Positions 32,678 through 41,307 of a stretch of 64,000 bases of DNA are shown one piece after another. The stretch covers positions 62,001-126,000 of the forward strand of contig CANFTW010000004.1 in NCBI GenBank assembly GCA_947450025.1, given 5' to 3'. How positions within the stretch are numbered: the first letter of the stretch is position 1; every line of letters begins with the position of its first letter. The notes under the pieces are model-generated. The model ran no database searches and was not told the DNA's origin. It saw nothing but the letters and a program-made list of their open reading frames with translations. This DNA is from Bacteroidota bacterium (GTDB taxonomy: Bacteria; Bacteroidota; Bacteroidia; B-17B0; Aurantibacillaceae). The position numbers were made by a program, and so were the translations under genes.

Positions 32678-35600
32678 TTACTTTAGTAAAGTTACATGAC
32701 CAATATATTCATGTTTTTTATCAAACACATCGGTTAGTTTAACTTTCCAAACATATACATCTTGTTGTACGATATTATCATGTCCTAGTTTTTTACCATT
32801 CCATCCTTTATAGATATCGTCTGTGTAAAATATTTTTTCTCCCCAACGATCGAATACCCACATTTCATACTTCTGTATTCCTATACCCATTCCTGAAAAA
32901 TAATCATTGATTCCATCAGCAGACTCTGGCGTAAAGGCATTAGGTATATAAAAAGTAAACTCTGGTTTTATTTCAATTGGTAAGGATACTCTATCTTCAC
33001 ATCCATGTATAGATGTCGCAATTAATGTAACAACGTATTCACCTGAATTTACATACATATGACTAGGATTAACCTCTGTAGATGTATTATTAATTCCGGA
33101 TGAAAATGGGTCGCCAAATCCCCAAACAAAAGAGAAAGCTCCTTGCGAGGTATTTACAAATGAGATATTCGGATCCGTAATCGTTCCAAAGGAAGGATTA
33201 GTATAGAACGAAGCTACTGGCATAGGATATACCTCAATCATGTCAGGAATACTAAATGTATTTGAGCATTGATGATTTGTAGTAGCAGTTAAAGTAACAC
33301 TATATAAACCGGCATTGGAGTAACAATGTGCTGGATTTTGACTCGTGCTAATTCCTCCATCACCAAAATTCCATAACCAAGACTGAATAACATCAGGCGC
33401 AGTAACATTTGATTGATCTGTAAAATTAACACAATGTGCTGGACATCCTGTAGGATTATCAACTACGAAATTAATCACAGGTTTCTTATAAAAATTAATT
33501 TGAACCGTTGATGTTACATTTTGACATGGAGCTGTAGCAATAGCCGTTAACGTTAATGTTAATGAGCTATTTAAAAAATCACTTGAAGTAGGATGATATT
33601 GAGCATTTAACATGGTATTATTTACACTAAAAACACCTGAACCTCCAGACCAAACTGCACTATTAGCAGATCCACCTAGAGTTCCATTTAATTGAATACT
33701 ACTAACACCTTCGCAAGCAAACGCAGAACTGCCTGCATTAACAGTTGGCAAAGGTAATACTGTAACTATAACGCTTGCATTTGATTGGCATGATGTTGCA
33801 ATATCTGTTGTAAGAACAGTATATGAAATATTTACAGGATTTAAACCTGAATTTGTTGCAGTTACAGACGGATTAGAAACAGATGTATTGTTTAAATTAA
33901 TTGCAGGAGACCATGAATAAGTATAATTAATATCTGGATTTGTACCTAACACTCCTGTTTGTCCTGAACAAATTGTGATTGGACTTCCTGCGATTGATTG
34001 AGGTATCGGATTAACCGTAACTTGAACCTGATTACTTGCTTGACAACCATTAGAAGTAACTGTTAAGGAATAGGTTGAAATTGAAGGAGACGTTCCTAAA
34101 TTACTCAATGTGACTGTTGGATTAGAAATGTTTGAATTACTTAATCCTATTAACGGATACCAGGAATATGTATATCCAGATGAAGGAGAAGATCCTATTA
34201 TCCCTGATTGACCATTACAAAATGCAATTGCATTACCGGCATTGGCAATTGGCAATTGATTAACTATTACCTGAGTTTGTGCTGCACCAACACAACCGTT
34301 TGCACTTGTAACGGTTATACTATAATTAGTAGTAATTGTTGGAGTTACAACAGAACTAGATGTATTTGAAAAACCAATGTTCCCTGGAGAATCCCATGAA
34401 TAAATATTTCCTGCGCTTGTGGGACTGACACTCAACGTTGCGTTTCCACCTATACAAATTGTTTGATTAGGTGATGCGCTAACTGATAAAAAATTTAAAA
34501 CATTAGCTATGGCTGCAGAAAATGGGCTCACACATCCAAATGTATTGGTTGTATTGACATAATAGGAGGTAGTTGTGCTTAGGCCTGGTGTAGAATATGA
34601 TGGATTAGTCGCCAACAAAGTGCCTCCAACATTATTAGAATACCAATTATACGTTCCTCCTGGAGCAGTTGCTATTAATGTAGCGGATGAACTAGGACAT
34701 ACCGTTACATTTAAAACGGTTGGAGCTAAGGGGTTTGGATTTATTGTTATCGTAAAACTTTCTGGAATTCCAACACAAGAATTTAAGGATGGCGTAACTG
34801 TGACAATCCCACTTAGTGAAGTTGTTCCATTATTAGAAGATACAAATGAAGGTACATTTCCTGTTCCTGATGTTCCTAATCCATTTGATGAATTTGAATT
34901 TACCCAATTGTAAGCTGTTCCAGAAATATCTCCAGTAAAAGTTGTGCCTGCTACTGTTGATCCTGTACAAACAGTTGAACCCAAAACAGCATTAACCGTA
35001 GGAATTGGATTTACTAAAACAGTATAATTCGTAGGAGTTCCTATACAAGAATTTGCAGAAGGCGTTACTGTAATAATCCCCAATATAGGAATCAATGTTG
35101 TGTTTGTGGCACCAAAAGTAGTAACAATACCTATACCAGAAGTACCTAATCCAATAGATGAATTTGTATTAGACCAACTAAACGTTGTACTTGTCACACT
35201 TCCAGAAAAAACAGTTGAAGGAACAGTAACACCTGCACAATATGTTGAACTAGTAACCGCATTTACATTAGGAATTGGATTTACTAAAACAGTATAATTC
35301 AAGGGAGTTCCTATACATGAATTTGCAGAAGGCGTTACTGTAATAATCCCCGATACGCCAGAATTAGTATTATTGATTGCATTAAATGAACCAACTACTC
35401 CAATACCAGAACCTGGAGCACCTATACTAGTATTTGAATTAGTCCAATTAAATACAGTACCTATCACATTTGCTGAAAAAGAAGTTACTGGAACATTACT
35501 AGCACTGCAATACGTTGAACTCGGCACACTACTAACTACTGGTATTGGATTAACATTCACAGTAAAATCTGTTGGAATACCTATACAAGAATTTGCAGAA

Positions 35601-37678
35601 GGAGTAACCGTAACCACTCCAAATATTCCTGAAGTGCTTGTATTTATTGCACCAAAAGCTGCTATATTTCCTGCACCAGAAACTCCTAATCCAATAGATG
35701 AATTTGTATTAGACCAACTATAGGTTGTACTTGTTACACTTCCAGAAAAAACAGTTGAAGGGACAGTAACACCTGCACAATATGTTGAACTAGTAATCGT
35801 ATTGATATTAGGTATTGGGTTAACCGTAATTGTATATATAATTGGAGGTCCAACACATGAATTAGCTGTTGGTGTAACAGAAATGATTGCGTTTATAGGT
35901 GAGGCGCTTGTATTTACAGCTGTAAAACTTGGTGTATTTCCAGATCCATTTGGTAACAGACCTATTGAATTATTACTATTTGTCCAACTATATGTTGTTC
36001 CTGCAACCGTACTGGAAAAAACCGAAGCTGGAACAATTGAATTATGACAAATAACAACATTTGTAGGAGTTAACATTGTAGGCAATGGATTAACCGTTAC
36101 CCTGCTAAGAGCAGTATCTTGACATCCGTTAATATCTGTATATGTAACTGTATAAATTGTTGTTGACGTTGGGGAAGGAGATAATGAAGCTCCTCCTCCT
36201 CCTCCAGGAGACCAAGAGTATGTCCCTGCTCCATTATTAACAGTTGATGTTAACAATGCTGCTGTTCCATTACAAACAGTTTGAGAGTTTGCTGATGCTA
36301 ATGCAGCAGGATATAAAGAAACTGAGTACGTTAAAAATGTTTGACAATTAGAATATGATGTTAATTGACAGGTATAAGTTGTTGTCGTTGTAGGAGTAAC
36401 AGCAACAGTTTGTGTAGTTGCTCCCCCAGGTGTCCATGAATAGGTAAATAATCCAACAGGTGCACTTAACACTGTTGATTTAGAAGGGCATACTTTATTA
36501 ATACCAGTAATAGCTAAAGGAGAGCAATTAGCGTCGATATATGCGTAAGCAAAATGGGCTCCTCTAGTACAATCGCCAACAGTATATCTCACGGTTACAC
36601 AAGTTCCAATATATGGAGTTAAATCCACAGCAACTGGCGACCAATTTTTATAATAAACATTAGATCCTAATCCTGCCAAAGTAAAGCCGGGTATACCAGG
36701 GCCTCCAGTGACAAGATATTGACCGCATGCCACTGGATTACCTGAACAGTCATAAATATCCGTTTTAAAAAAAGGTTGTTCTTGATTTGTATGATCAGAT
36801 CCTGCATCCTGCAAAACAACCGCATAATAATAAACGAATAAGGCATTAGATGCGGTTACTGTAAATTTTTGTTCTAAGGATGCTCCGCATGCCCCGGGAA
36901 TACCTCCATAATATTGGCCAGTTAAACCAAACGTACCAAAATCTCCTAATCTGATAGAATTCGTTCCCCCTGAAGGATTAACGATTGGAAACCCTCCATA
37001 TGGGTCAACTCCTGCTCCACTTGTTACAGAATGTTGGGTAGGAGAAGTCGAATAATACATTGGAATATAAGTTGGCGTTGGCGCTCCTGCCGCTCCAATA
37101 TTAACACAACCAGTAGTCCCAATCCAACCAGATAAATTTCCATTATCATATCCTATATTAGTGCATGCTGGCTGCAATGTTGCTGCTGGTGGATTTACAT
37201 GATATTGAATATTTAAAGAATAACTAATACATGTTTCAGTAAATGTTGCTGTTGGATAATTATCAATCATTACATAATAACAACTGCCTGCGGTGGCTGT
37301 GACAGATAAAATACTATTAATATAATTTGCACCTGTAAATGATGTCGAAGCCCAATTAGATCCGCTAGCATTAGGAACAGAAGTATATACCATCACTGCT
37401 GGAGGTGTTCCATATACATTGTTCATCAAAATATCTATCACTCCTGAAGTTGGTGCACAAAAATAATATAACCAATCACTTCCATCTGGAGTAATTCCAT
37501 ATGGACCTAGTGGATTATAATTGTTTACGTGGCCACAAGTGGTGCCTGATGCTGAAAATGGAAGTGTAATTGGGCTTGCTGCTGCTGCTGCTGCATTATC
37601 GCCTCCTTGTGAGAAAGACTTCTGCGAAAATGAAAATAAAAAAATTAAAGAAATTTTAATAAATAAAATTTTTCTCAT
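32678..37678 (-). CDS. Giant secreted adhesin-like protein with T9SS type B sorting domain
   Basis: 1666 residues. A signal peptide (to about 23) is followed by an N-terminal domain (to about 400), Ig/PKD-like units, and a block of five about 90-residue repeats (about 530-985) each beginning near NPIPxVNAVxSSTYC and ending with ITVTPSANSCIGTP. More Ig-like units lead to two PKD domains (about 1400-1575, with SWLWNFGDGGIST). The last 85 residues form the CHU_C/gliding-motility-associated sorting domain (FYIPNAFTPE..DGINDYF, VFDRWGEKIF, HVTLLK). The last signature is the type B signal for export by the type IX system. A cell-surface adhesin or matrix protein is inferred. Stand-alone gene. Confidence 0.9.
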   Translation of the reverse strand: MRKILFIKISLIFLFSFSQKSFSQGGDNAAAAAASPITLPFSASGTTCGHVNNYNPLGPYGITPDGSDWLYYFCAPTSGVIDILMNNVYGTPPAVMVYTSVPNASGSNWASTSFTGANYINSILSVTATAGSCYYVMIDNYPTATFTETCISYSLNIQYHVNPPAATLQPACTNIGYDNGNLSGWIGTTGCVNIGAAGAPTPTYIPMYYSTSPTQHSVTSGAGVDPYGGFPIVNPSGGTNSIRLGDFGTFGLTGQYYGGIPGACGASLEQKFTVTASNALFVYYYAVVLQDAGSDHTNQEQPFFKTDIYDCSGNPVACGQYLVTGGPGIPGFTLAGLGSNVYYKNWSPVAVDLTPYIGTCVTVRYTVGDCTRGAHFAYAYIDANCSPLAITGINKVCPSKSTVLSAPVGLFTYSWTPGGATTQTVAVTPTTTTTYTCQLTSYSNCQTFLTYSVSLYPAALASANSQTVCNGTAALLTSTVNNGAGTYSWSPGGGGGASLSPSPTSTTIYTVTYTDINGCQDTALSRVTVNPLPTMLTPTNVVICHNSIVPASVFSSTVAGTTYSWTNSNNSIGLLPNGSGNTPSFTAVNTSASPINAIISVTPTANSCVGPPIIYTITVNPIPNINTITSSTYCAGVTVPSTVFSGSVTSTTYSWSNTNSSIGLGVSGAGNIAAFGAINTSTSGIFGVVTVTPSANSCIGIPTDFTVNVNPIPVVSSVPSSTYCSASNVPVTSFSANVIGTVFNWTNSNTSIGAPGSGIGVVGSFNAINNTNSGVSGIITVTPSANSCIGTPLNYTVLVNPIPNVNAVTSSTYCAGVTVPSTVFSGSVTSTTFSWSNTNSSIGLGTSGIGIVTTFGATNTTLIPILGIITVTPSANSCIGTPTNYTVLVNPIPTVNAVLGSTVCTGSTVAGTTFTGDISGTAYNWVNSNSSNGLGTSGTGNVPSFVSSNNGTTSLSGIVTVTPSLNSCVGIPESFTITINPNPLAPTVLNVTVCPSSSATLIATAPGGTYNWYSNNVGGTLLATNPSYSTPGLSTTTSYYVNTTNTFGCVSPFSAAIANVLNFLSVSASPNQTICIGGNATLSVSPTSAGNIYSWDSPGNIGFSNTSSSVVTPTITTNYSITVTSANGCVGAAQTQVIVNQLPIANAGNAIAFCNGQSGIIGSSPSSGYTYSWYPLIGLSNSNISNPTVTLSNLGTSPSISTYSLTVTSNGCQASNQVQVTVNPIPQSIAGSPITICSGQTGVLGTNPDINYTYSWSPAINLNNTSVSNPSVTATNSGLNPVNISYTVLTTDIATSCQSNASVIVTVLPLPTVNAGSSAFACEGVSSIQLNGTLGGSANSAVWSGGSGVFSVNNTMLNAQYHPTSSDFLNSSLTLTLTAIATAPCQNVTSTVQINFYKKPVINFVVDNPTGCPAHCVNFTDQSNVTAPDVIQSWLWNFGDGGISTSQNPAHCYSNAGLYSVTLTATTNHQCSNTFSIPDMIEVYPMPVASFYTNPSFGTITDPNISFVNTSQGAFSFVWGFGDPFSSGINNTSTEVNPSHMYVNSGEYVVTLIATSIHGCEDRVSLPIEIKPEFTFYIPNAFTPESADGINDYFSGMGIGIQKYEMWVFDRWGEKIFYTDDIYKGWNGKKLGHDNIVQQDVYVWKVKLTDVFDKKHEYIGHVTLLK
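34730..36090 (-). repeat. Five tandem about 270-bp units encoding PKD-like repeats
   Basis: Each unit encodes about 90 residues. Long DNA matches survive between units: 35151-35256 and 35691-35796 differ at only four of 106 positions, and 35001-35081 resembles 35271-35351 at 270-bp offset. The near identity at a two-unit distance indicates recent duplication of a two-unit block or conversion between units. Confidence 0.85.
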
Positions 37679-38132
37679 AGGTTTAGTGGTTTAATTTTTG
37701 CGTAAATTAATCTAAGTTGATAGCAATGTTAAAGAATAAAAACAATCCTATTTTGTAGAAATTCGGCATTTCAAAAAATATTTTTTATTTTTTATGAAAT
37801 CTGTATTTTTTTTGTCGATAATCAAAACATCATATTTTCTCGAAAAAAAACAAGAAAAAAAATCGAAATGAATTACAAAAACAATCTTTCCATTTACTAT
37901 TTTTAGATGAAATCATTAAAAAAAATTCAAGCATTAATACCCTTTTTTCATAAAAAAAATGGATGTAAAAACTATTTTTTCCGCTTAATAAAAAATAAAT
38001 TCACTCAACAAGGTCAGTATTTCACTTTAAATTAAAAGCATTTCACTCATTCGAAAGAAAAATAATGAGTTTGATTTTCAAAGACTTAAGCTGAATACGT
38101 GATTTATTTCACTTTTACATGTAACTATTTGA
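37679..38132. other. A+T-rich divergent spacer with repeated TTCACT sites
   Basis: These 454 bases separate the T9SS protein gene from the ECF sigma gene. No convincing gene was found. The left part has many A and T runs; the right part holds the TTCACT repeats listed separately and an inverted pair ACTCATT (38045-38051) and AATGAGT (38064-38070). Confidence 0.55.
38000..38113 (+). promoter_or_regulatory. Four TTCACT repeats upstream of the ECF sigma gene
   Basis: TTCACT begins at 38000, 38021, 38042 and 38108. The first three are exactly 21 bp apart (two helical turns), and the fourth lies 66 bp further, 20 bp before the start codon. Three of them extend to ATTTCACT. Phased sites upstream of a regulator gene suggest cooperative binding of a protein, possibly autoregulation. 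Confidence 0.4.
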
Positions 38133-38753
38133 ATGGTTTCGCATTATAAACCTACAATGCTTTTAGACGCAGTTCATATGGAATTTTCACCCCGATACCA
38201 CCATACCGCCGATATGTTGCTTGATGAGCAAATCATCATTGAGGCTGCGAAACAAAACCCAGAGCATTTTGGGCCATTGTACGACAAATATTATAAACAA
38301 ATCTTCGGATATGTTTATCAACGTATGGATTGCAAAGACACTGCTTTTGACTTAACAGCGCAAGTATTTTTAAAAGCATTAACTAATATTGGAAAATATG
38401 AATACAAAGGGGTGCCATTTGCTAGCTGGTTATATCGAATAGCTCATAGTGAGGTTATGCAATTATTCAGGAATCAAAAAAACCTAAGAACAATTAATGC
38501 AGACATAAGTGACTTGAGAAATATTTGCGAAGAAGTTGAAGAAGAGTACATGGAACAATACAAAGGGGTACTCATGAGTGTTATTAAGAACTTGCCTGAA
38601 GATGATTTACAACTTATTGAATTACGTTTTTTTGAAAAACGTCCATTTAAAGAAATTGCTGAAATCCTAAATTTGACTGAAACAAATGCTAAAGTTAAAC
38701 TTTATCGAATACTAGAACGAGTAAAAAAAACATTGACTAAAACATCCAAATAA
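38133..38753 (+). CDS. ECF-type RNA polymerase sigma factor
   Basis: 206 residues with sigma region 2 (LYDKYYKQIFGYVYQRM, FLKALTNIGKY, SWLYRIAHSEVMQLFR) and region 4 helix-turn-helix (LPEDDLQLIELRFFEKRPFKEIAEILNLTETNAKVKLYRIL). The ATG at 38133 gives about 28 residues more than family norm; ATGs at 38178 and 38214 (MLLDEQIIIEAA) are alternatives. It probably directs an envelope-responsive regulon. Its stop overlaps the start of the next gene (TAATG), the usual arrangement for a sigma and its membrane anti-sigma partner. Confidence 0.9.
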   Translation: MVSHYKPTMLLDAVHMEFSPRYHHTADMLLDEQIIIEAAKQNPEHFGPLYDKYYKQIFGYVYQRMDCKDTAFDLTAQVFLKALTNIGKYEYKGVPFASWLYRIAHSEVMQLFRNQKNLRTINADISDLRNICEEVEEEYMEQYKGVLMSVIKNLPEDDLQLIELRFFEKRPFKEIAEILNLTETNAKVKLYRILERVKKTLTKTSK

Positions 38754-40516
38754 TGGGAACAAAATTTAATATTGATCGAAAACCAGTACCTGACGAAGAA
38801 ATCAATTCACATAAAGATTTTGGAGAACTCGTCAATAAATTTAAAAAGCAGAGCATTGAAAAAGCCCGAGGTGACTCAAATTTTTTAAAAAATAAAAAGG
38901 CAACCTATTCCACAATTATTGCAGGCGTCGCCGTTATTTGTACAGTAACCTATTTCTCAGTATTAAAAAAAGAACCCACTAAAGAAATTGCCCATGACAA
39001 AATAATTACTAAGCAAAACTCTGATAAAAACACCCCCTCTAATAAGCTCAAAAAAGCATTTATTGCGCCACCTATATCCAAACTCAATGTGCCTTATACT
39101 TCGTATAAAATAAAAGCTGAGCAAGGTGCAATCATTAAACATCAATCTCATTCAAAAATTATTATTCCAAAAAAAGCCTTTGTTGATAAACAAGGGCATG
39201 ATATTGTTGGTGATGTTGAGATTAAATACAGAGAGTTTCATAACCAAGCAGACATTATTGTCAGTGGAATACCAATGACCTATGATAGTGCAGGTGTGAA
39301 AACTCATCTTGAAAGCGCTGGAATGTTCGACATAAAAGGTTATCAAAATGGAGAACCTATCTCTATTAATCCAAACAAACAAATTACCATTGAATTTGCA
39401 TCTGAGTATCCTAATGATCGATATAATTTATATGAATTAGATACTATAGCTAAAAACTGGAATTACCTTGAACGAGATAATTCTTTAAAAAAATCACCTA
39501 TCAATGCTGTGTATCATACCCTTTCAAAAACTGAATCTCCAAACGCTAAAGAATTACAAAATAAAATAGACTTAATTCCACCAAAAATTGAATTAGAGAA
39601 AACAGTATACTCAAAAAAACTCAATCAATTACCAAAAATTACAGAGCCAACAAAACCAACAAAAGCTATAGTTGGAAGGCCTCAATTTGAATTAGAAGTT
39701 GATTATAAAGAATTTCCTGAACTAGCTGCATTTAAAAATGCTGTCTTTGAAGTTGGTTCTAAAAACAAAAATTACAATTCTAAATTAGCAGATATCACAT
39801 GGGGTAGCGCAGAAATTTCAGAAGGTCCTCAAAAAGGAAAAAATTATTTATTGACTTTGAAATTAAGAGAACGAGTAGAAAAACTAATTGTTTATCCAGC
39901 CCTAACTGCTGCTAATTATGATAATGCTTTAAAATCGTATGAGTTAAAATTTACTGACTATAAAAATTTAGTTGTAAAAAGAGAAGCCAATGAAAAAAGA
40001 TTGAAAGAAGAATTTGAAGCAAAACAATCTCAGTACCTAACTGAAATGAAACAATTAGAAGAAAAAAAAATCCAAGAAAATATTAAATTATGGAAAGAAC
40101 AGGAAAGTAAACAAAATGAACAATTCCGCTCAATTGACAATCAAGAAAAAGTCGTTCGTGTTTTTCAGATCAGCAAATTTGGCACTTACAATTCTGATTG
40201 CCCTACTTTTTTGCCTGATGGAGCGACAATAAATCCTAAGTTCGTTCTAAATCATTCTGAAACAAAAATCAATCCTCATACAATATACCTTATTTGCCAT
40301 TCTAAAAATTTAGTTTACAACCTACAAAACAATTCGATTACTTATAATCCCGACGAGACTTATAGTTTATGTGTCTTAGCAAAAGGGAAATTATATTTAT
40401 GTAGTAAAGAAGAATTTCATAGGATTACAACTTCTAAAGAACATGAGATTCGTTTAACTGAATTAAGTGATGAGGTTAACGATGCTAATGATTTAAAAAA
40501 AGCAATGGGAATTTAA
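38753..40516 (+). CDS. Single-span membrane protein, candidate anti-sigma partner
   Basis: 587 residues. A 50-residue cytoplasmic N-terminus (DFGELVNKFKKQSIEK) precedes one membrane helix (about 53-71). The extracytoplasmic part has a conserved Bacteroidota-type domain (IIIPKKAFVDKQGHDIVG, VSGIPMTYDSAGVKTHLESAGMF, about 135-250) and a coiled coil (about 400-460, KRLKEEFEAKQSQYLTEMK). No canonical anti-sigma domain is recognised. Position, overlap with the sigma gene and topology make an anti-sigma or sensor role likely, but it is inferred. The next gene follows after 11 bases. Confidence 0.65.
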   Translation: MGTKFNIDRKPVPDEEINSHKDFGELVNKFKKQSIEKARGDSNFLKNKKATYSTIIAGVAVICTVTYFSVLKKEPTKEIAHDKIITKQNSDKNTPSNKLKKAFIAPPISKLNVPYTSYKIKAEQGAIIKHQSHSKIIIPKKAFVDKQGHDIVGDVEIKYREFHNQADIIVSGIPMTYDSAGVKTHLESAGMFDIKGYQNGEPISINPNKQITIEFASEYPNDRYNLYELDTIAKNWNYLERDNSLKKSPINAVYHTLSKTESPNAKELQNKIDLIPPKIELEKTVYSKKLNQLPKITEPTKPTKAIVGRPQFELEVDYKEFPELAAFKNAVFEVGSKNKNYNSKLADITWGSAEISEGPQKGKNYLLTLKLRERVEKLIVYPALTAANYDNALKSYELKFTDYKNLVVKREANEKRLKEEFEAKQSQYLTEMKQLEEKKIQENIKLWKEQESKQNEQFRSIDNQEKVVRVFQISKFGTYNSDCPTFLPDGATINPKFVLNHSETKINPHTIYLICHSKNLVYNLQNNSITYNPDETYSLCVLAKGKLYLCSKEEFHRITTSKEHEIRLTELSDEVNDANDLKKAMGI

Positions 40517-40527
40517 CCACTAAAAAA

Positions 40528-41307
40528 ATGAAAAAACTATTTTTACCACTACTAGGAATAGTCCTATTAACCGTTTCTTTTAAGGTTAATTTAAAAAAAG
40601 ATTTTATTCCTCCTGGAACTGTGCAAATAAACGACACTTTGTTTGCTGATGAATGTGAAATCTCGAATTTTTCTTGGCAAGAATATGAAATGTGGACAAA
40701 AGCCATTTATGGTTCAAATTCAAATGAACATTTAGCTGTTTTACCTGATACACTGGTTTGGAGAGAAAAATTATCCTATAATGAACCTTATGTTCAATAC
40801 TATTATCGTCACCCTGCCTATAAAGATTATCCGGTAGTTGGAATTAGCTACGAACAAGCTATTGCATATTGTAAATGGAGAACGGATAGAGTAAAGATAT
40901 TTTTAATTAAGAAAAAAAACTTTTCAAGCCATAATTTTGAATACCGTTTACCGTCAAAATCTGAATGGGAAATTTTAGCTGAAACTTCTTCTATTGCCTT
41001 AAATAATAATGGAAAAAACGAAAAAGGCATTTACTTATTGAATTGCGTAAACCCTTTACCTAATGGAGATTGCATCCATGCTCCTTACCCTGATGTTACA
41101 ACTCCTGTAAAATCATACGAAAAAAATTTCATTGGCCTATATAACATGTTAGGAAATGTCTCTGAAATGGTTCTGGAAAAAGGGATTAGTAAAGGTGGGG
41201 GTTGGAAAAACAGGTTGGAAGAGTGCCGAGTAGGAAAAAATCAAGAATATACGAAGCCTAATTCATGGACAGGTTTCAGATGTGTTTGTGTGATTAAAAA
41301 GAAATAA
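40528..41307 (+). CDS. SUMF1/FGE-fold protein, GldJ/GldK-like, exported
   Basis: 259 residues with an N-terminal hydrophobic segment (about 5-20) and the formylglycine-generating-enzyme fold: YPVVGISYEQAIAYCKWR, YRLPSKSEWEILAE, GLYNMLGNVSEMV and a C-terminal SKGGGW followed by WTGFRCVCV. The paired cysteines used by catalytic FGE after the GG(S/G) motif are not visible in KGGGWKNRLEECRVGKN, so it is probably structural, like GldJ and GldK of the gliding/T9SS machinery. Third gene of the sigma operon, suggesting that the sigma system monitors or builds an envelope structure. Confidence 0.78.
   Translation: MKKLFLPLLGIVLLTVSFKVNLKKDFIPPGTVQINDTLFADECEISNFSWQEYEMWTKAIYGSNSNEHLAVLPDTLVWREKLSYNEPYVQYYYRHPAYKDYPVVGISYEQAIAYCKWRTDRVKIFLIKKKNFSSHNFEYRLPSKSEWEILAETSSIALNNNGKNEKGIYLLNCVNPLPNGDCIHAPYPDVTTPVKSYEKNFIGLYNMLGNVSEMVLEKGISKGGGWKNRLEECRVGKNQEYTKPNSWTGFRCVCVIKKK

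Follow-up and report, generated by a model that had tools for sequence, protein, structure and literature searches.

How is an ECF sigma factor governed when the membrane protein encoded beside it carries no recognised anti-sigma domain, and does an exported SUMF1-fold protein encoded behind both belong to the same circuit? Three genes raise this question in a 64,000-nt stretch of DNA, here called the window, from a Bacteroidota bacterium of the Aurantibacillaceae (GCA_947450025.1, contig CANFTW010000004.1, positions 62,001–126,000 of the forward strand). Class I anti-sigma domains are reported beside 6% of Bacteroidetes ECF sigma factors versus 32% overall, and the survey giving these figures suggests that synteny may be broken or that other modes operate, anti-sigma factors of other classes among them (PMC7406223). 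A sequence-only reading of the locus had suggested a three-gene circuit that senses envelope or secretion state. Here we follow that proposal through gene linkage, domain and fold prediction, and promoter conservation.

Gene layout and the start of the sigma gene

All three open reading frames named by the sequence-only reading (38133–38753, 38753–40516 and 40528–41307) are present in the window. The sigma and partner genes overlap, as it had stated, with one base shared by the sigma stop codon and the partner start codon, and the third gene starts 11 bases 3′ of the partner gene. The features are as follows.

38121–38148, forward strand: GTAAC-N18-TTATA, an ECF-type promoter preceding the sigma gene and conserved in orthologue upstream regions
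38178–38753, forward strand: ECF sigma factor from its probable true start, 191 aa; Pfam Sigma70_r2 and r4, start kept in relatives
38753–40516, forward strand: partner of 587 aa with one membrane span, probably an anti-sigma factor; linked to sigma, no Pfam family
38753–38902, forward strand: partner residues 1–50, cytoplasmic tail and probable sigma-binding segment, from the distribution of the tail profile
38909–38965, forward strand: partner residues 53–71, membrane span, from hydrophobicity read from the sequence; similar position in linked homologues
39083–39502, forward strand: partner residues 111–250, predicted ZU5/GAIN-like beta domain (AlphaFold2 models, VIA-align)
39908–40129, forward strand: partner residues 386–459, predicted long helix (AlphaFold2 model)
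40145–40210, forward strand: partner residues 465–486, strands predicted to complete the ZU5-like fold (AlphaFold2, alignment)
40528–41307, forward strand: mini-GldJ, an exported GldJ paralogue with the SUMF1 fold, optional as third gene; Pfam FGE-sulfatase, GldJ the nearest paralogue

Just upstream of the sigma gene, on the opposite strand at 32678–37678, lies the gene of a 1666-residue protein that carries PKD/Ig repeats together with a type IX sorting domain of the CHU_C kind.

The first product is an ECF sigma factor, matching Pfam Sigma70_r2 (5e-12) and Sigma70_r4_2 (5e-10) with no match in region 3, and scoring 88 bits against the NCBIfam sigma70-ECF model, above its cut-off of 43. Assignment as BldN or SigM was rejected, as the NCBIfam scores fall below the respective cut-offs. 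The reading frame opened at 38133 stands, but its start codon does not: position 38133 falls inside the conserved promoter and would be unusable by the transcript of that promoter, which makes 38178 the likely start. The real product is thus probably the 191-residue protein, a length shared with several relatives.

The promoter itself consists of GTAAC at 38121–38125 and TTATA at 38144–38148, separated by an N18 spacer. We compared 100 upstream regions from which loci with identical sigma proteins had been removed beforehand. Among the 49 same-family orthologue regions 47 have GTAAC-N18-TTATA 5′ of sigma, as do four of the 51 others (45 from other families and six from diverged or paralogous same-family pairs), the letter-shuffled control giving a mean of 0.12 per 100. 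Two copies, with a spacer of 17 or 18, occur in 29 of the 49 same-family regions. The variant GTATC-N17-TTATA precedes sigma in 14 of the 51 other regions, eleven of these from one genus, and any such dyad appeared at most four times in each of 20 shuffles. The position of GTAAC-N18-TTATA before its own sigma gene fits autoregulation, which is common among ECF sigma factors. Further 5′, at 38020–38046, stand two TTTCAC boxes 21 bases apart, possibly the site of a second regulator; at least two such boxes are found in 33 of the 49 same-family upstream regions.

Tight linkage of the sigma factor and its partner

The partner, or its exported domain, is present in 74 of 87 same-family genomes. Of 396 sampled Bacteroidia genomes, 197 are matched by a profile of 48 homologues, in some cases through the exported domain alone. 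We examined 57 same-family loci, which are part of the same-family matches found. With five excluded upstream, sigma lies directly 5′ of the partner in all 52 that were testable, and in 49 of these the gap is between −14 and +11 bases. In other Bacteroidia families a sigma gene lies within 500 bases of the partner in 35 of 40 loci (L118–L157; 386 bases in L154), a non-random set chosen among the better profile matches in which some loci share one genome. Shared ancestry among the genomes enters most of these counts. Across 100 sigma–partner pairs, restricted to partners of at least 450 aa, the two distance matrices correlate with r 0.90, reached in none of 500 permutations; common ancestry by itself would also make r high. 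In all six multi-pair genomes entered, each sigma pairs best with its physical neighbour, by small margins in G240 and G127. Sigma and partner are a tightly linked pair, and the unit is this pair rather than a triad.

That the partner spans the membrane once and lacks a recognised anti-sigma domain, both claimed from the sequence at the outset, agrees with what we find. A single hydrophobic stretch near residues 53–71 can be read from the sequence, and neither Pfam nor NCBIfam gives a match at E ≤0.01, the NCBIfam scan covering the window protein. In the 48 aligned homologues Pfam returned one weak, unrelated match in each of two proteins. No anti-sigma Pfam domain was detected in the window partner or in any of the 48 homologues, the feature by which class I is recognised. 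The pair resembles RseA and RsiW (class I) and RsbN (class III) in that a membrane partner is encoded beside an ECF sigma factor, and differs from them in this absence. As judged by sequence comparison, the pair is widespread in Bacteroidota and the partner is in no family that we can name. Most likely the two proteins are an anti-sigma/sigma pair of an unrecognised type.

A cytoplasmic tail confined to sigma-linked partners

The sequence-only reading had singled out partner residues 1–50, and a conserved cytoplasmic tail is indeed found there. Sigma-linked partners carry some 40–50 residues before the span, with the loose pattern N-R-x3-S-x-E-E-I-x4-[DN]-F. Trained on 41 same-family rows, a profile of the tail matches 37 of 42 sigma-linked test partners (35 distant and seven paralogous or diverged same-family proteins) versus none of 12 unlinked homologues at E ≤0.01. 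The 12 come from 10 loci with no adjacent sigma, eight of them resemble exported proteins or lipoproteins by eye, and all test proteins had at least 200 aa. This confinement of the tail to sigma-linked partners is the strongest hint that it contacts sigma, and residues 1–50 are the probable sigma-binding segment. In the AlphaFold2 model of the partner alone the tail forms helices at residues 14–17 and 23–40, with low to middling confidence. Compared by sequence with PDB chains, solved anti-sigma structures among them, the tail had no match at a convincing E-value.

Among the closest known arrangements is CnrH–CnrY, from class II, whose anti-sigma factors wrap two helices round the sigma; there a single-span protein with a short cytoplasmic segment is likewise encoded beside an ECF sigma factor (CnrY features in part from PMC7406223). 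The window partner differs in a tail that lacks a convincing counterpart among solved chains and in its large, predicted ZU5-like exported part. The tail is also short for class I, whose mean of 101 residues (PMC7406223) is roughly double its length.

Neither linkage nor the tail profile gives the sign of control, since both suit a sigma-binding protein that restrains or one that promotes. FecR-type regulators are needed for the activity of their sigma factor, and the partner could similarly recruit or activate sigma and be required for its activity instead of inhibiting it. We consider this quite improbable: four genomes keep a related sigma (57% identity in L214; 32–37% in L216–L218) and have no match to the partner within roughly 1.5 kb of it, so such a sigma can persist without a neighbour of this kind.

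The exported part is predicted to adopt a ZU5/GAIN-like fold

In AlphaFold2 models residues 111–250 and the strand pair 465–486 form one beta domain, with helix 386–459 standing between its two parts. The runs used one 11-sequence set and reached only middling confidence, with pLDDT 70.8 for the full length and 70.1 for the exported part (pTM 0.38 and 0.36). Ankyrin ZU5 heads both VIA-align lists (Z 11.0, rmsd 3.1 and 130 aligned residues in the first; Z 9.1, rmsd 3.1 and 121 aligned in the second), to be read against the Z of 7–8 that models with no clear match usually score and as a verdict among the listed folds. GAIN and FIIND domains follow lower in both. Unlike folds also appear, with the axonemal chain 9fqr_Hn at Z 9.0 between the ankyrin and GAIN rows of the first list and a MukBEF coiled coil at Z 8.1 in the second. 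Foldseek alone returned nothing at E 0.001, its best match being 3kbu_C at 2.6e-3. The exported part is accordingly predicted, from these models, to belong to the ZU5/GAIN superfamily fold.

Three residues of the partner, R469, N480 and D482, are invariant in 48 of 48 homologues. The likeness to ankyrin, PIDD, adhesion GPCRs and NLRP1 lies in the predicted ZU5, GAIN or FIIND fold; the partner differs from them in its identity of about 10%, in giving no Pfam ZU5 match, and in having no conserved autocleavage tripeptide. Autoproteolysis by the ZU5-like domain was considered and rejected, as no such tripeptide (H-L/F-S/T) occurs at a conserved place. The 48 ectodomains contain H[FLIMV][ST] four times, each time at another column, and a C-x-H near residue 483, present in 13 of 48 and absent from the window protein, is never followed by [LFIV][ST].

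ZU5-like domains are also found in proteins with no sigma neighbour. One is fused to an OmpA domain elsewhere in the same genome (C7:148000–158000; L080, 3335–5419), and a tandem pair of ZU5-like proteins lies at L155, 3664–7984; sigma is not adjacent in either case.

The third gene is an optional GldJ paralogue

The third open reading frame encodes a 259-residue protein with the SUMF1 fold that had been assigned to it (Pfam FGE-sulfatase) and an export-type N-terminus read by eye. Its description as GldJ/K-like is partly apt. GldJ is its closest relative within its own genome, with 54% identity over residues 37–135, but the protein is not an equivalog of GldJ or GldK: it scores slightly higher with the NCBIfam model of GldK (124 bits, cut-off 350) than with that of GldJ (108, cut-off 458), both far below threshold. 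It shares the GldJ-type SUMF1 core with GldJ and differs from it in being about half as long and in having no lipobox, its N-terminus containing no cysteine. Among 31 homologues 11 have a cysteine at residues 9–35, and two of these look lipobox-like by eye.

If the three genes formed one dedicated triad, with the SUMF1 protein as ligand of the partner, this would account for the close mini-GldJ gene that adjoins the pair 3′ in 32 of 55 testable same-family loci (two of the 57 being excluded downstream) and, by match coordinates, in four further genomes (G026, G027, G036 and G041). A conserved triad is not supported: the SUMF1 gene is not beside the pair at the remaining 23 same-family loci or at any of the 40 distant ones. 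G084 (39%) and, in part, G001 and G024 moreover have diverged SUMF1 homologues that are not linked to the pair. Among 19 searched partner genomes with no adjacent close copy, GldJ is the sole match in 15 and a contig-edge piece of GldJ the only one in G072; G084, G001 and G024 hold the further diverged matches elsewhere. The dedicated triad seems to us quite improbable. We describe the third gene, on sequence grounds, as a small exported paralogue of GldJ, accessory to the pair and optional. At L042, 1643–1880, a mini-GldJ remnant matches residues 1–31 and 218–257 only.

gldJ and tolQ as possible targets

Searching its own genome with the motif gave 14 matches versus 18 in a reversed control, and a CGTTA version gave nine versus 27, so that a genome-wide regulon drawn from the motif alone was rejected. 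As the motif is not enriched genome-wide, only cases that recur in other genomes were weighed. Four of the 14 copies are intergenic, lying 5′ of sigma, of a GldJ homologue (387 bits, cut-off 458), of a tolQ/exbB-like gene and of a gene for a 312-residue secreted protein. The last (L158, 560–1495) has no Pfam or NCBIfam match and starts 33 bases from the first base of the motif.

We surveyed the gldJ promoter in 41 same-family genomes. Among the 33 with a partner gene, 31 have the full motif before gldJ (the exceptions being G020 and G007), and so does G002, where sigma is seen with no partner beside it. The motif also precedes gldJ in three of seven genomes that have no partner, G043, G044 and G046, all of one genus. 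G043 and G044 encode a sigma of 32–37% identity with a similar N-terminus, and no sigma as close as this turned up in G046 (78% complete). In pair-bearing genomes of other families gldJ has the motif by eye in three of 30, as the GTATC type in G207 (one of six genomes examined in its family) and the GTAAC type in G149 and G158. A parallel change of the gldJ and sigma promoters in these families was rejected, as 27 of the 30 have no TTATA at the place. The tolQ-like gene carries the motif, with N17 or N18, in 13 of 26 pair-bearing and none of four pair-lacking genomes, always 108–116 bases upstream, the shuffled expectation being 0.065 per 30. The spacer is 17 in 12 of these genomes and 18 in the genome of the window, the one genome of its genus, out of ten examined, to carry the tolQ motif.

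Another ECF sigma factor, for example a SigP-like one, may serve gldJ and tolQ while this sigma serves mainly its own operon, and we give this only slightly less than an even chance. In partner-less G060, G061, G062 and G064 gldJ retains GTAAC and a CGTTA-like box, so that the gldJ promoter may have another reader, and in other pair-bearing families gldJ is mostly free of the motif. For Flavobacterium psychrophilum, ECF promoters of a class that has a CGT box are reported upstream of T9SS genes, together with one sigma/anti-sigma operon, THC0290_1774/1773 (PMC9723704). Against a second sigma, the same four genomes have lost TTATA, and the tolQ motif is seen in pair-bearing genomes only; moreover, of the three searched for a sigma, G061 and G064 encode none closer than 29% and G060 has one of 39%, while G062 is 56% complete. 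The comparison with the T9SS of Porphyromonas gingivalis runs along the same line: PorXY–SigP also ties an ECF sigma to T9SS or gliding genes, a tie that is only suggested here, and SigP is described as being under the control of a two-component system (PMC4800418), whereas in our locus the sigma gene comes with that of a membrane partner. From promoter conservation, gldJ and tolQ are possible targets of this sigma in this family. The envelope or secretion sensing put forward from the sequence gains indirect support from a promoter type shared with gldJ in most same-family genomes and with the tolQ/exbB-like gene in some, and loses from a gldJ promoter that is kept, whole or in part, where the pair is missing and mostly absent in other pair-bearing families.

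Discussion

Our results suggest a model, which we hold with good though not full confidence, in which the first gene encodes an ECF sigma factor and the second a membrane-bound anti-sigma factor for it, of an unnamed type widespread in Bacteroidia. Linkage, co-inheritance, the confined tail and the conserved promoter are observed, and the fold is predicted. Residues 1–50 of the partner would hold sigma in the cytoplasm, and the single span would carry a periplasmic ZU5/GAIN-like domain and long helix that read the state of the envelope. A signal may then free sigma through cleavage or a change of shape of the partner. Freed sigma would start its own operon at GTAAC-N18-TTATA and, in this family, possibly also gldJ and the tolQ-like operon. 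The exported mini-GldJ would play an accessory and optional part, perhaps as a periplasmic ligand or in place of GldJ. Among the titles and abstract openings of the open-access papers searched we found no paper describing this sigma–partner pair and none linking an anti-sigma factor to ZU5.

A bolder reading extends the model to a class of anti-sigma factors found throughout the Bacteroidota, with a sigma-binding tail of about 50 residues and a ZU5/GAIN-like periplasmic sensor, that would explain part of the missing anti-sigmas of the phylum and would in this family couple the state of GldJ/T9SS and of the Tol envelope system to transcription, a soluble GldJ mimic being the signal. Taken as a whole we regard this as rather unlikely. 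Minimally, the pair offers a concrete candidate for those Bacteroidetes ECF sigma factors that have no class I anti-sigma, and its conserved motif supplies a candidate promoter for gldJ.
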